Shown piece by piece: positions 30,579-50,817 of a DNA stretch of 64,000 bases. The translations under genes were made by a program, and so were the position numbers. The stretch is from Ectothiorhodospiraceae bacterium 2226. Lineage in GTDB: Bacteria > Pseudomonadota > Gammaproteobacteria > GCA-013348725. The stretch spans positions 1,352,501 to 1,416,500 of the forward strand of contig CP054689.1 in the NCBI GenBank assembly GCA_013348725.1, read 5' to 3'. The notes beneath the pieces are model-generated. The model was not told where the DNA came from and searched no databases. It worked only from the letters and a program-made list of their open reading frames with translations. Position 1 is the stretch's first letter. Each line of letters opens with the position of its first letter.

Positions 30579-31721
30579 ATGGCATCCATCGAGCACGCCA
30601 GCGCCCGGGCCGGGGCCGAACTCACCGTGTTTCTGAGCGGCGACGTGATGACCGGGCGCGCCATCGACCAGATCCTGCCCCATCCCAGCGCGCCGCAGTT
30701 GTACGAGACCTATATCGGCGATGCGCGCGACTACCTGCGTCTGGCCGAAGAGGTGCACGGCCGGATTCCGCGGCCGGTCCCGTTCGCCTACCCCTGGGGC
30801 GACGCGCTGGCGCTGCTCGACGCCGCCGCCCCGGACCTGCGCATCATCAACCTCGAGACCAGCGTCACGCGCCACGAGGTGCCCGCCGCCAAGGGCATCA
30901 ACTACCGCATGCACCCGGCCAACGTGCCGGTGCTCACGGCGGCGCACATCGACTGCTGCGTCCTCGCCAACAACCATGTGCTGGACTGGGGCGAGGCGGG
31001 CCTGCTCGAGACCCTCGACACGCTGGCCGCGGCGGGGATCAACGTGGCCGGCGCGGGGCGCAATGCCGTGGCCACCGCGCAGCCCGGGGCCTTGGCCGTC
31101 CCCGGTAAGGGCCGCGTGCTGGTGTTCGCCTACGGCGTGCGCACCAGCGGCGTGCCGCTCGAGTGGGCGGCGGGCGCCCAGCGCCCGGGCGTGCAGTACC
31201 TGGAAGACCTGTCGGGCGACGCGGTGGAGGCGATCGCGGCGCAGGTGCGCGCCGCCGCGCAGCCGGGCGACGTGGTGATCGCCTCCCTCCATTGGGGCGG
31301 CAATTGGGGCTACCGCATCCCGCCGGCACACCGGCGCTTCGCCCACGCCCTGATCGACGCGGCCGGCGTGCACCTGGTACACGGCCACTCCTCGCACCAC
31401 CCGCTGGGGATCGAGCATTACCGCGGCCACCTGATCCTGTACGGCTGCGGCGACCTGTTGAACGATTACGAGGGCATCGGCGGCTACCAGGCGTTTCGCG
31501 GCGAACTCGGCCTGCTGTATCTCGCCACCCTCGACCCCGCCGACGGGCGCCTGCGGCGCCTGGTCCTGCTGCCCACCTGCACGCGGCGTTTTCGCCTGCA
31601 TCGCGCCGCACCGGCGGAGCGCGAGTGGCTGCAGCGCGTGCTGGCGCGCGAGAGCGCGCCCTTGGGCACGTGCATCACGCTGCAAGCCGACGGACGGCTG
31701 CTCGCGACGGCGGCGCGCTAA
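30579..31721 (+). CDS. CapA-like metallophosphatase family protein
   Basis: A 380-residue protein of the PGA_cap family, related to CapA of poly-gamma-glutamate capsule synthesis. The calcineurin-like motifs are SGDVMTGRAID near residue 20, NLETSVT near 89, LANNHVLDWG near 128, and HWGGNWGYRIPP plus HGHSSHHPLG near 240-275. There is no signal peptide, unlike CapA proper, and no capB/capC genes are nearby, so a capsule role is unlikely. It may be a soluble metallo-hydrolase; the substrate is unknown. It follows pncB by 16 bases. Confidence 0.82.
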   Translation: MASIEHASARAGAELTVFLSGDVMTGRAIDQILPHPSAPQLYETYIGDARDYLRLAEEVHGRIPRPVPFAYPWGDALALLDAAAPDLRIINLETSVTRHEVPAAKGINYRMHPANVPVLTAAHIDCCVLANNHVLDWGEAGLLETLDTLAAAGINVAGAGRNAVATAQPGALAVPGKGRVLVFAYGVRTSGVPLEWAAGAQRPGVQYLEDLSGDAVEAIAAQVRAAAQPGDVVIASLHWGGNWGYRIPPAHRRFAHALIDAAGVHLVHGHSSHHPLGIEHYRGHLILYGCGDLLNDYEGIGGYQAFRGELGLLYLATLDPADGRLRRLVLLPTCTRRFRLHRAAPAEREWLQRVLARESAPLGTCITLQADGRLLATAAR

Positions 31722-31778
31722 CGCGCGTTACACGGTGCGCGGTCTGAGCAAGCCTAGAGCGCGTCATTCAGCCCTGTC

Positions 31779-44369: not shown

Positions 44370-45554
44370 TCAGCCCGGTGCACGCGCGGCGCGGCGCGCG
44401 AAGATGAGCAGCAACAGCGCGGAGAGGCCGGTCAGCCCGGCCGAGGTGAGGAACGCGACCTCCATGCTCACCCACTCCCACAGCACCCCGAACAGCACCG
44501 CGCCCGGCAGCGCGGCGAGGCCGCTCAGCATGTGGTACACGCCGAATGCGGTGCCGCGCTGGCCTTCCGGGGTGTAGTCGCCAATCAGGGCGCGCTCGGC
44601 GCCCTCGGTGGCGGCGAGTGTGGCCGCGTATAGCAGGAACAGCCCCCAGGTCCACGCCGCGCCCGGCGGCGCGAGCGCCAGCGCCACCAGCACCAGCAGG
44701 CGCGCGCTCCAGCCGCCCAGCACCACTGGCAGGCGCCCGAGCGTGTCGGACAGGCCGCCCAGCGGGTAGGCCACCAGCGCCTTGACCGCATGCGCCGCGG
44801 CCCACAGCAGCGGCACCCACACCAGCTCCAGCCCGCGCGCGCTGGCCCAAAGCACCAGGAAGGCCTCGGGCGCGGTGGCGAGCGCGAGCCCCCCGGCCGC
44901 CACCACCATGCCGCGCACGCGCGCATCCAGCACCCGCCAGCGCAGCGGCGCGTAGGCGCTGGGCGGCGGCGCCGGCGGCGAGGCGGTGCCGAACATTAGC
45001 AGCAGGATCACCAGCAGGCCCGGCACGGCCGAGGCGAGGAACACCTCGCGCATCTCCAGGCCGAGGCCGAGCAGCGCAAAGGCGAGCAGCGGGCCCAGCA
45101 TCGCGCCGGTATGGTCCAGCGCCCGGTGGAAGCCGAACGCCTGGCCGCGGTGCGCCTGGGCGACCGAGGCAGCCAGCCAGGCGTCGCGCGGCGCGGTGCG
45201 CAGCCCCTTGCCGATGCGGTCCATGAAGCGCAGCCCCAGCACCCAGCCCCAGTTCAAGGCCAGCGCGATCAGCGGGCGCACCGCGTTGGACAAGCCGTAG
45301 CCGCCCACCACCAGCGGCTTGATGCGCCAGCCACGGTCGGCCAGGCGCCCGGCGATGAGCTTCATCAGGCTGGAGGTGGCCTCGGCGACGCCCTCGACCA
45401 GCCCCACCACCGCCGGCCCGGCGCCCAGCACCAGGGTGAGGAACACCGGCAACAGCGGCGCGATCATCTCGCTGGCCGCGTCGTTCAGCAGCGAGGCCAG
45501 CCCCAGCACCACCACCACGCGCGGCAGCGCGAACACGGCCCACGGGTGCCTCAT
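44370..45554 (-). CDS. Major facilitator superfamily transporter
   Basis: A 394-residue membrane protein with about twelve hydrophobic segments. The opening LGLASLLNDAASEMIAPLLPVF and the loop GRLADRGWRIKPLVVGGY match an MFS subfamily of unknown substrate. RIGKGLRTAPRDAWLAAS fits the conserved loop between helices 4 and 5. MRHPWAVF with GAGGAC upstream is the likely start. A 26-residue upstream extension is Gly/Glu-rich and unlikely to be translated. Confidence 0.85.
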   Translation of the reverse strand: MRHPWAVFALPRVVVVLGLASLLNDAASEMIAPLLPVFLTLVLGAGPAVVGLVEGVAEATSSLMKLIAGRLADRGWRIKPLVVGGYGLSNAVRPLIALALNWGWVLGLRFMDRIGKGLRTAPRDAWLAASVAQAHRGQAFGFHRALDHTGAMLGPLLAFALLGLGLEMREVFLASAVPGLLVILLLMFGTASPPAPPPSAYAPLRWRVLDARVRGMVVAAGGLALATAPEAFLVLWASARGLELVWVPLLWAAAHAVKALVAYPLGGLSDTLGRLPVVLGGWSARLLVLVALALAPPGAAWTWGLFLLYAATLAATEGAERALIGDYTPEGQRGTAFGVYHMLSGLAALPGAVLFGVLWEWVSMEVAFLTSAGLTGLSALLLLIFARRAARAPG

Positions 45555-45724
45555 CGGCCCGTCCTCGCCTTGCCGCTCGCCCCCGTCGGCCGCTTCGCAT
45601 CCATGCCCGCGCTCCCCTTGGCGATCCCTCAAACTGTCGTCCGCCGGGTGCTCACTGTCGAGGCGCGGTACGGGGCTCTGCTATCACTGAAGGCAAGCTC
45701 TGATCAATGCGGAGCTTCCCGCAG

Positions 45725-45762
45725 CACAGAGGCACAGAGGCACAGAGGCACACAGGCACAGG
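45725..45762. repeat. Eight-base microsatellite
   Basis: CACAGAGG is repeated three times exactly, followed by CACACAGG and CACAGG. It lies just upstream of the 114-bp tandem repeat array and has no visible coding role. Confidence 0.85.
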
Positions 45763-45764
45763 AT

Positions 45765-46214
45765 GTGCCGCCGTGATCGACGGCTGGAAGCCGTTGGTCA
45801 CGAAGCAGAGCGAAAACCGCGCTTTTCGCTCCGCGTGGTCTGAGCCATCCAGGATGGATGGATTCAGACCTACAAACGGTGCCGCCGTGATCGACGGCTG
45901 CAAGCCGTTGCTCACGAAGCAGAGCGAAAACCACGCTTTTCGCTCTGCGTGGTCTGAGCCATCCAGGATGGATGGATTCAGACCTACAAACGGTGCCGCC
46001 GTGATCGACGGCTGCAAGCCGTTGCTCACGAAGCAGAGCGAAAACCGCGCTTTTCGCTCCGCGTGGTCTGAGCCATCCAGGATGGATGGATTCAGACCTA
46101 CAAACGGTGCCGCCGTGATCGACGGCTAAAAGCCGTTGATCACGAAGCGAAGCGGAAACCGCGCTTTTCGCTGCGCGTGGTCTGAGATATCCAGGATGGA
46201 TTTACTCAGACCTT
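45765..46214. repeat. Four tandem copies of a 114-bp structured repeat
   Basis: Units begin at 45765, 45879, 45993 and 46107, a period of exactly 114 bases; the fourth unit is divergent. Each contains three inverted repeats: ACGGCT..AGCCGT (near base 15), a 12-bp arm GCAGAGCGAAAA..TTTTCGCTCTGC (near base 40; perfect in unit 2), and CCATC-CAG-GATGG (near base 82). The period keeps a reading frame open through the first three units, but the composition looks structural rather than protein-coding. A single inverted copy lies at 50552-50656. The rest of the 686-bp gap between MFS and primase genes shows nothing else. Confidence 0.88.
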
Positions 46215-46240
46215 CCGAGGGAGCGGCAGGCGAGGCGACC

Positions 46241-47023
46241 ATGGACACACGCATCGAACAGGCGGCACTCGGCTATCTCGCACGCGGTTGGTCCGTCGTT
46301 CCGCTGCGCCCGCGGGACAAGCGCCCGATCCTGCGCTGGCAGGACTTCCAGCACCGGCACCCCGACCCGGACGAGGTGCGCGGCTGGTACCGCCACTGGC
46401 CGGAGGCCAACGTCGGCGTGGTCACCGGCGCGATCTCCGGGCTGGTGGTGGTGGACGTCGACCCGCGCCACGGCGGCGAGGACAGCCTGGCCGAGCTGGT
46501 GCACACCTACGGCCCGTTGCCGCAGACCGCGGAGGCGGTCACCGGCGGCGGCGGGCGGCACCTCTACTTCGCGCACGCGGGGCGCCCGGTACATAACCGC
46601 GCGGGCGTCGCGCCCGGCATCGACCTGCGCGGCGACGGCGGCTACATCGTGGCGCCGCCCTCGCGCCACCCCGCGGGCGGCTGGTATGCGTGGGTGCCGG
46701 GCAGCGCGCCGGAGGCGGTGGCGCTGGCGCCGCTGCCGCGCTGGCTGCCGGCGCGGGAGGCGGGCCGCGGCGGGCGCCTGGGTCACCCCGTGAGCTACTG
46801 GCGCGACCTGGCGCGCGAGGGCGTGGCCGAAGGCGCGCGCAACAGCACCCTCGCCTCCTTCGCGGGGCATTTGCTGTGGCACGGGGTGGACCCCGACGTC
46901 GCGCTGGAGCTGCTGCTGTGCTGGAACCGCGTGCGCTGTCGCCCGCCGCTGGCGGACGAGGAGGTGATCGGCGTGCTCGAGAGCATCACGCGCCTGCACC
47001 GCAACGGGGGCGACGCGCGGTAG
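46241..47023 (+). CDS. PrimPol-type DNA primase/polymerase with PriCT-like domain
   Basis: A 260-residue protein. Residues 1-175 are a bifunctional primase-polymerase N-terminal domain: GWSVVPLRPRDKRPI, the catalytic VVVDVDPRHGG (two Asp) near residue 70 and GGGGRHLYFAH near 103. Residues ~185-258 match a primase C-terminal 1 domain (ARNSTLASFAGHLLWHGVD ... VLESITRLHR). Such proteins usually come from plasmids, phages or integrated elements. Here it stands alone, with no helicase or integrase, just downstream of the tandem repeat array. GAGG nine bases upstream supports the start. Confidence 0.83.
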   Translation: MDTRIEQAALGYLARGWSVVPLRPRDKRPILRWQDFQHRHPDPDEVRGWYRHWPEANVGVVTGAISGLVVVDVDPRHGGEDSLAELVHTYGPLPQTAEAVTGGGGRHLYFAHAGRPVHNRAGVAPGIDLRGDGGYIVAPPSRHPAGGWYAWVPGSAPEAVALAPLPRWLPAREAGRGGRLGHPVSYWRDLAREGVAEGARNSTLASFAGHLLWHGVDPDVALELLLCWNRVRCRPPLADEEVIGVLESITRLHRNGGDAR

Positions 47024-50530: not shown

Positions 50531-50551
50531 CGCGACCCCCTTACGGGTGCT

Positions 50552-50656
50552 GGTCCGAATCAGTCCATCCCGGACGTCTCCGACCATGCAAAGAGAACAG
50601 CGTGGTTTTCGCTTTGCTTCGTGATCCACGGCTTGCGGCGTCGATCACGGCGGTAC
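50552..50656 (-). repeat. Solitary inverted copy of the 114-bp repeat
   Basis: Read on the minus strand this is a divergent copy of the array unit at 45765-46214: ACCGCCGTGATCGACG, then ATCACGAAGCAAAGCGAAAA, then TCCGGGATGGACTGATTC. It lies directly upstream of the HPP gene and supplies an in-frame ATG to it. Confidence 0.82.
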
Positions 50657-50817
50657 ATCGCTATGCCACGGGAAGCATCCGAACGACTCAGAGCTTCCTA
50701 TGCACTTGTCGCGGGCAAGCCCGCCCAAGCAATGCCCCAAAATGGGGCAACAGTAGGCGCAAGAAGATGCTTCGTCAATACACCTTTTTGGATCTTCCCC
50801 CGCCCCCACGCGAACAT

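Follow-up and report, generated by a model that had tools for sequence, protein, structure and literature searches.

The array in the window and its relatives in the same genome

The window, a stretch of 64,000 nucleotides from the genome of Ectothiorhodospiraceae bacterium 2226 (positions 1352501-1416500 of contig CP054689.1), contains a tandem array of a 114-bp unit that lies between a divergent gene for an MFS transporter and a gene with Prim-Pol and PriCT domains, the start of which is ~25 bp downstream of the array (Table 1). A preliminary description of this DNA had proposed four units with an exact 114-bp period, and this is confirmed by a repeat search (spacings of 114, 114 and 114 between units) and by TRF (45765-46213, 3.9 copies, 94% matches, 0% indels). 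The array is nonetheless longer than the interval first assigned to it (45765-46214), with a left-end hairpin and an 8-bp run before it and a right end at ~46216. In the same way, the three hairpins ascribed to each unit are present as three strong ones (H1, H2 and H3), and the 12-bp arms that had been reported are those of H2, but the complete element found elsewhere has five hairpins.

Table 1. The array, a second copy of the repeat and neighboring genes (positions within the window)
Feature	Position	Strand	Basis or details
Divergent MFS transporter gene	44370..45632	-	Pfam PF07690 1.2e-33
Degenerate left terminal inverted-repeat hairpin GGCAAGCTCTGATCAATGCGGAGCTTCC	45692..45719	+	Read from sequence
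8-bp tandem run (GCACAGAG)n	45724..45761	+	TRF period 8, 4.8 copies
Hairpin H0 of unit 1, GGCACAGGATGTGCC	45755..45769	+	Sequence and folding
Unit 1 (H1-H2-H3)	45765..45878	+	Repeat search, TRF
Unit 2	45879..45992	+	H1 45886-45916, H2 45919-45948, H3 45949-45987; TRF, folding
Unit 3	45993..46106	+	Repeat search, TRF
Unit 4, diverged; right terminal repeat TCAGACCTTCC at its end	46107..46216	+	
Prim-Pol + PriCT gene	46241..47023	+	Pfam PF09250 4.4e-46, PF08708 1.8e-8
Second copy of the repeat	50547..50698	-	Left-end hairpin 50671-50698, core 50547-50671, right end degenerate

The left-end hairpin of the array resembles intact left ends found in the same genome (locus L024, GGAAGCGCCGATCAATTCAGGGCTTCC) and in another, G124. 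The 8-bp run is apparently a slippage product of the 5' arm of H0, and the H0 loop of unit 1 is CAGGATG, one N shorter than the CANGGANG loop found in other copies. A target duplication was looked for at the window array, and no clear one is visible there. The second copy in the window lies directly upstream of a gene of the HPP family, and a weak profile match at 31677-31776 (E = 4.8e-7), which is absent from the covariance-model list, is possibly a very old copy. The small Prim-Pol/PriCT gene encodes a function usually found on plasmids or phages, and sits here among MFS and glyoxalase-like genes.

A genome-wide covariance-model search, a check that the preliminary description had suggested, shows that the array belongs to a dispersed family, of which this genome of 2.96 Mb has ~86 to 117 units spread over more than 40 places. 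The counts vary with the method, from 49 BLAST matches with the array as query and 67 units at E <= 1e-8 (41 sites) in a profile search of fetched regions, to 117 matches at E <= 0.01 with a covariance model built from 45 units, some of which duplicate a place already matched on the opposite strand; a second covariance model, built from several genomes, gave 86 units at E <= 1e-6 among the matches listed. Tandem arrays are also present at other loci in this genome, with six units (L009), four (L010 and L011) or three (L014, L015 and L017), so the core has been multiplied in tandem there.

These copies also bear on whether the array encodes a repetitive peptide. The length of 114 bp is divisible by three, and a frame is open across three units, as had been reported (45707-46129), but the opposite strand is open as well (45652-46029), and neither frame matches a protein family beyond one sub-threshold chance match. 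Among 45 units of this genome, stops occur in 42, 35 and 15 of them in the three frames, that is, in most copies in two frames and in a third of copies in the remaining one, and unit length varies from 111 to 137. A protein-coding repeat was rejected on these grounds, and we regard a peptide product as hardly credible.

The complete element, its ends and its distribution

In its complete form the element measures ~150-163 bp between its ends, lacks a transposase gene and occurs in many copies. It consists of five hairpins in the order HL, H0, H1, H2 and H3, where HL is the terminal repeat folded on itself and H3 is formed by the right terminal repeat, into which a GGA-loop hairpin is inserted. 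The element is bounded by terminal inverted repeats of the GGAAGCTCTGAATAAG type and by 4-bp YTAR target duplications. Near-identical copies with exact ends lie at unrelated sites in genomes G124, G090 and G212; for example, copies in the complete genome G124 read YTAR, GGAAGCTCTGAATAAGTTCAGAGCTTCC (HL), H0 to H3, TTCAGACCTTCC and the same YTAR. Paired terminal repeats (at least 10 of 13 end positions matching) were found in 73 copies, most of which share the same end positions. Identical 4-mers flank 45 of the 73, and 37 of these 45 are YTAR (TTAA 14, CTAG 9, TTAG 8, CTAA 6), counts for which the search favored matching flanks.

YTAR is the target motif of IS5 (PMC10359306), and autonomous IS5-type elements with similar ends and YTAR duplications are present in G261 (GGAAACGCTGAT), G090 (GGAAGCTCTGCA) and G124 (GGAACTTCTGCA). 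The transposase of the G261 element matches the NCBIfam IS5 model (2.4e-97), and both this insertion sequence and the mobile repeat of the same genome carry the local variant CGCTGA instead of CTCTGA, which ties one to the other. The ends, the duplications and these partners support movement by IS5-type transposases, and we propose that the element moves as DNA, in trans, by DDE enzymes of this type. In the window's genome, many copies have ends that adjoin gene ends (as called by a simple gene caller), and this fits a YTAR target because YTAR holds a stop codon on both strands, which the duplication restores. The copies there have diverged, and searches of that genome for a DUF772 transposase and for relatives of the G261 transposase found none, so the family looks extinct in it.

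The same core is also found within other ends, namely GAGGGTGTCGCAAAA ends with apparent 3-bp duplications in G009, and CAGGCTGTTGAAAA ends with YTAR duplications in G021, part of G015, Sedimenticola and others. All end types share a layout in which the terminal repeat forms a hairpin on the left and, on the right, has a GGA-loop hairpin inserted into it; at least three kinds of transposon ends enclose the same hairpin core. Partner transposons were searched for the GAGGGTGTCG and CAGGCTGTTG end types, and none was identified. Two small elements of G021 (G021:C27:14522-14661 and G021:C35:159629-159768) have CAGGCTGTTGAAAA ends and different content, one long hairpin of unrelated sequence replacing the core.

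REP/BIME sequences, which are moved by RAYT (Y1) transposases, are likewise palindromic, intergenic and high in copy number (PMC2817692). The inverted hairpins of the element with outward tetranucleotides, and three Y1 transposase matches in the genome, would fit a family of this kind, but the copies have IS5-type ends, their target duplications and long terminal repeats are features of DDE transposition, and none of the three Y1 genes is adjacent to a copy (nearest ~5 kb), so that membership in a RAYT-moved family is very improbable.

The family is widespread: of 369 genomes sampled from the class, 66 gave a covariance-model match at E <= 1e-6, and six genomes searched more fully have 26 to 136 units each at E <= 1e-6 among the matches listed. 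A scan of named genomes with the H0 pattern returned 120 stretches, mostly in metagenome assemblies; the carriers are labelled Gammaproteobacteria, Pseudomonadales, Thiotrichales, Thioalkalivibrio, Sedimenticola, Marinobacter, Porticoccaceae and Pseudohongiella, and one carrier of the H0 pattern is labelled Deltaproteobacteria. Plasmid and phage records were also searched, and no match to the family was found in them.

Some assemblies contain irregular copies. Genomes G090 and G212 (L264-L266, L268-L274) have many near-identical copies without the 5' arm of the left-end palindrome, nearly all on the minus strand of their contigs. The missing arm is probably an artefact of short-read assembly at a perfect palindrome, because copies in complete genomes are whole; a replication-strand bias behind the one-sided G090 copies was rejected, as there is no GC skew signal. 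Runs of N inside the element in G021 copies also suggest assembly trouble at hairpins.

The reading that we favor is that the window array is a decayed, internally multiplied IS5-type MITE with a structurally constrained core, which we hold to be very probable when the CsrA step discussed below is left aside. The preliminary description was thus borne out in its view that structure is under selection, but it missed both the MITE nature of the repeat and its spread across the class.

Conservation of the folded core

Selection on structure and not on protein, as had been proposed for the array, is supported by stems that covary across copies and genomes while the reading frame is not conserved. 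In a sequence-only alignment of units from the window's genome, both-sided changes occur in 22 of 46 pairs, and 87.8% of cells pair, compared with 32-39% for slid partners. Across genomes, both-sided changes occur in 43 of 46 pairs and the covariation score is 0.498 versus 0.05-0.09 for slid partners, although this alignment was fitted to a plus-strand model and its pair counts lean towards the modelled structure. The predicted stability is in keeping with this, as the G124 element folds into five consecutive hairpins (-95 kcal/mol, z = -14.7), and unit 2 of the window array, as RNA, has a folding energy of -63 kcal/mol on the plus strand (z = -7.7, 0 of 200 shuffles as low) and -59.5 kcal/mol on the minus strand (z = -6.0).

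Covariation of this kind could also be mutational in origin. Perfect palindromes are hot spots for template-switch repair of one arm from the other, and the element has a near-perfect palindrome at either end, so switching at imperfect palindromes might produce compensatory changes in the absence of selection for structure. However, the GGA of H0 and H3 is kept while the stems turn over, an excess of G-U pairs is left unexplained, and the old copies in the window's genome drift towards equal numbers of G-U and A-C and are not kept repaired, which makes a purely mutational origin quite unlikely.

The balance of mismatched pairs also informs the question of which molecule folds. Representatives from other genomes have 72 G-U and 31 A-C cells with H0 left out (p = 6.6e-5), compared with 46 and 44 in representatives from the window's genome, counts in which plus-strand alignment models favor G-U somewhat and the cells are not independent. 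We infer that the structure acts as plus-strand RNA, because G-U is tolerated more than A-C; an RNA folded in active lineages, with constraint relaxed in fossil copies, would give this result. The hairpins might instead matter as DNA, in single-stranded or cruciform form, by aiding the transposase, replication slippage or excision, with the loops as DNA contacts. The terminal repeat makes up a palindrome at the left and at the right end of the element, and folding is strong on both strands, as this proposal would have it, but the plus-strand excess of G-U over A-C is unexpected for DNA on both strands, and the variation of the loops, including two free N positions, fits an RNA-protein consensus. 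A need for internal hairpins is not known for DDE transposases of the IS5 kind, and a role as DNA is on balance unlikely.

Copies with stems broken and not compensated, which had been named as evidence against structural selection, do occur among the old copies of the window's genome but not among young copies elsewhere. Decay of the copies in this genome implies that the constraint does not act on the four units of the array themselves but on the lineage that is moving. Because moving lineages show the constraint and settled copies are losing it, a benefit to the element is more likely than one to the host. Bacterial MITEs are usually regarded as remnants of insertion sequences, and their hairpins as incidental. 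Here, compensatory change has kept a four-hairpin core in many families and within at least three kinds of ends, so that the folded core itself appears to be under some form of selection.

A separate observation is that H2 has a conserved loop (YCRCRY) able to pair with GYG after the stem, making a pseudoknot with the following bases possible; a helix between this loop and the following GCGTGGT is 91% paired, with no covariation beyond that of shuffles.

GGA loops, CsrA and relation to known systems

Two of the hairpins have loops of a distinctive type. Among 51 units from other genomes, found with a model trained on the window's genome, 43 have CANGGANG as the loop of H0, where each N can be any of the four bases, and the H3 loop has GGA in all 51 and CNGGANG in 40, whereas GGA is in the loop of H1 in one unit and of H2 in none. 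These loops have decayed in the window's genome (H0 21 of 45, H3 29 of 45). The consensus for RsmE is (A/U)CANGGANG(U/A) and that for E. coli CsrA is RUACARGGAUGU (PMC6692469). In our assessment, no other single reading accounts for these loops as well as binding of CsrA/RsmA does, and we tentatively propose, at somewhat less than even odds, that the H0 and H3 loops are bound by these proteins.

Under this proposal, the element would probably be transcribed from neighboring genes, its plus-strand RNA would fold, and CsrA/RsmA would bind the H0 and H3 loops (CANGGANG or CNGGANG), so that copies may act as small CsrA decoys or put their neighbors under Csr control. Tandem arrays would multiply the sites; when transcripts of the window array are folded, the sense strand displays five CAGGATG loops and the antisense strand none with GGA. 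More broadly, a structured RNA core displaying two CsrA/RsmA docking hairpins may have spread among gammaproteobacteria by way of several unrelated or distantly related transposon ends, its copies and arrays serving as mobile selfish CsrA decoys or bringing Csr control to new genes, a scenario that we consider conceivable but doubtful.

The window's genome has one csrA. Of the 66 genomes with the element, 57 have a csrA match, as do 256 of the 303 others, so the gene shows no association with the element. Both sampled genomes of family f123 (G122, which is 95% complete, and G237) carry the element and have no detectable csrA.

No known repeat family had been recognised in the preliminary description, and no Rfam family reaches threshold. 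A known RNA family was considered and rejected because all Rfam matches are sub-threshold (best RsmW, 28.4 bits versus a cut-off of 52, E = 0.026). The sponging RNAs CsrB, RsmX-Y-Z and RsmW likewise form hairpins whose GGA loops are of the CANGGANG kind, but they are single genes with their own promoters, whereas the element is a mobile repeat without a recognised promoter.

Among mobile repeats, IS5-type MITEs with internal repeats have already been described (PMC4596501), as have MITEs with stable RNA structure (PMC2229807). BrickBuilt has IS5-like terminal repeats, is gene-less and moved in trans, and contains internal tandem repeats that form long stem-loops, but its repeats are a 23-nt minisatellite and it was described in one species, Porphyromonas gingivalis (PMC4596501), while the element reported here has a 114-125-bp core with three to four hairpins and several kinds of ends, and is present in many families of a class. 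Correia/NEMIS and ERIC elements are also 100-200 bp long and intergenic, with terminal repeats, target duplications and stable RNA hairpins, but most form one long stem joining the ends (PMC2229807), in place of the five separate hairpins with GGA loops seen here. A conserved multi-hairpin core with several end types and CsrA-type loops was not found in Rfam or in the literature searched, nor was anything relevant on the H0 sequence or on a MITE with CsrA. If the GGA loops do bind CsrA, a gene-less transposon would interfere with a global regulator, and each genome would hold dozens of dispersed sites that are absent from its annotation.

The six-unit array at L009:2313-3148 immediately follows a tRNA-Ser (tga) gene in the same orientation, and may be transcribed as a trailer of that tRNA.
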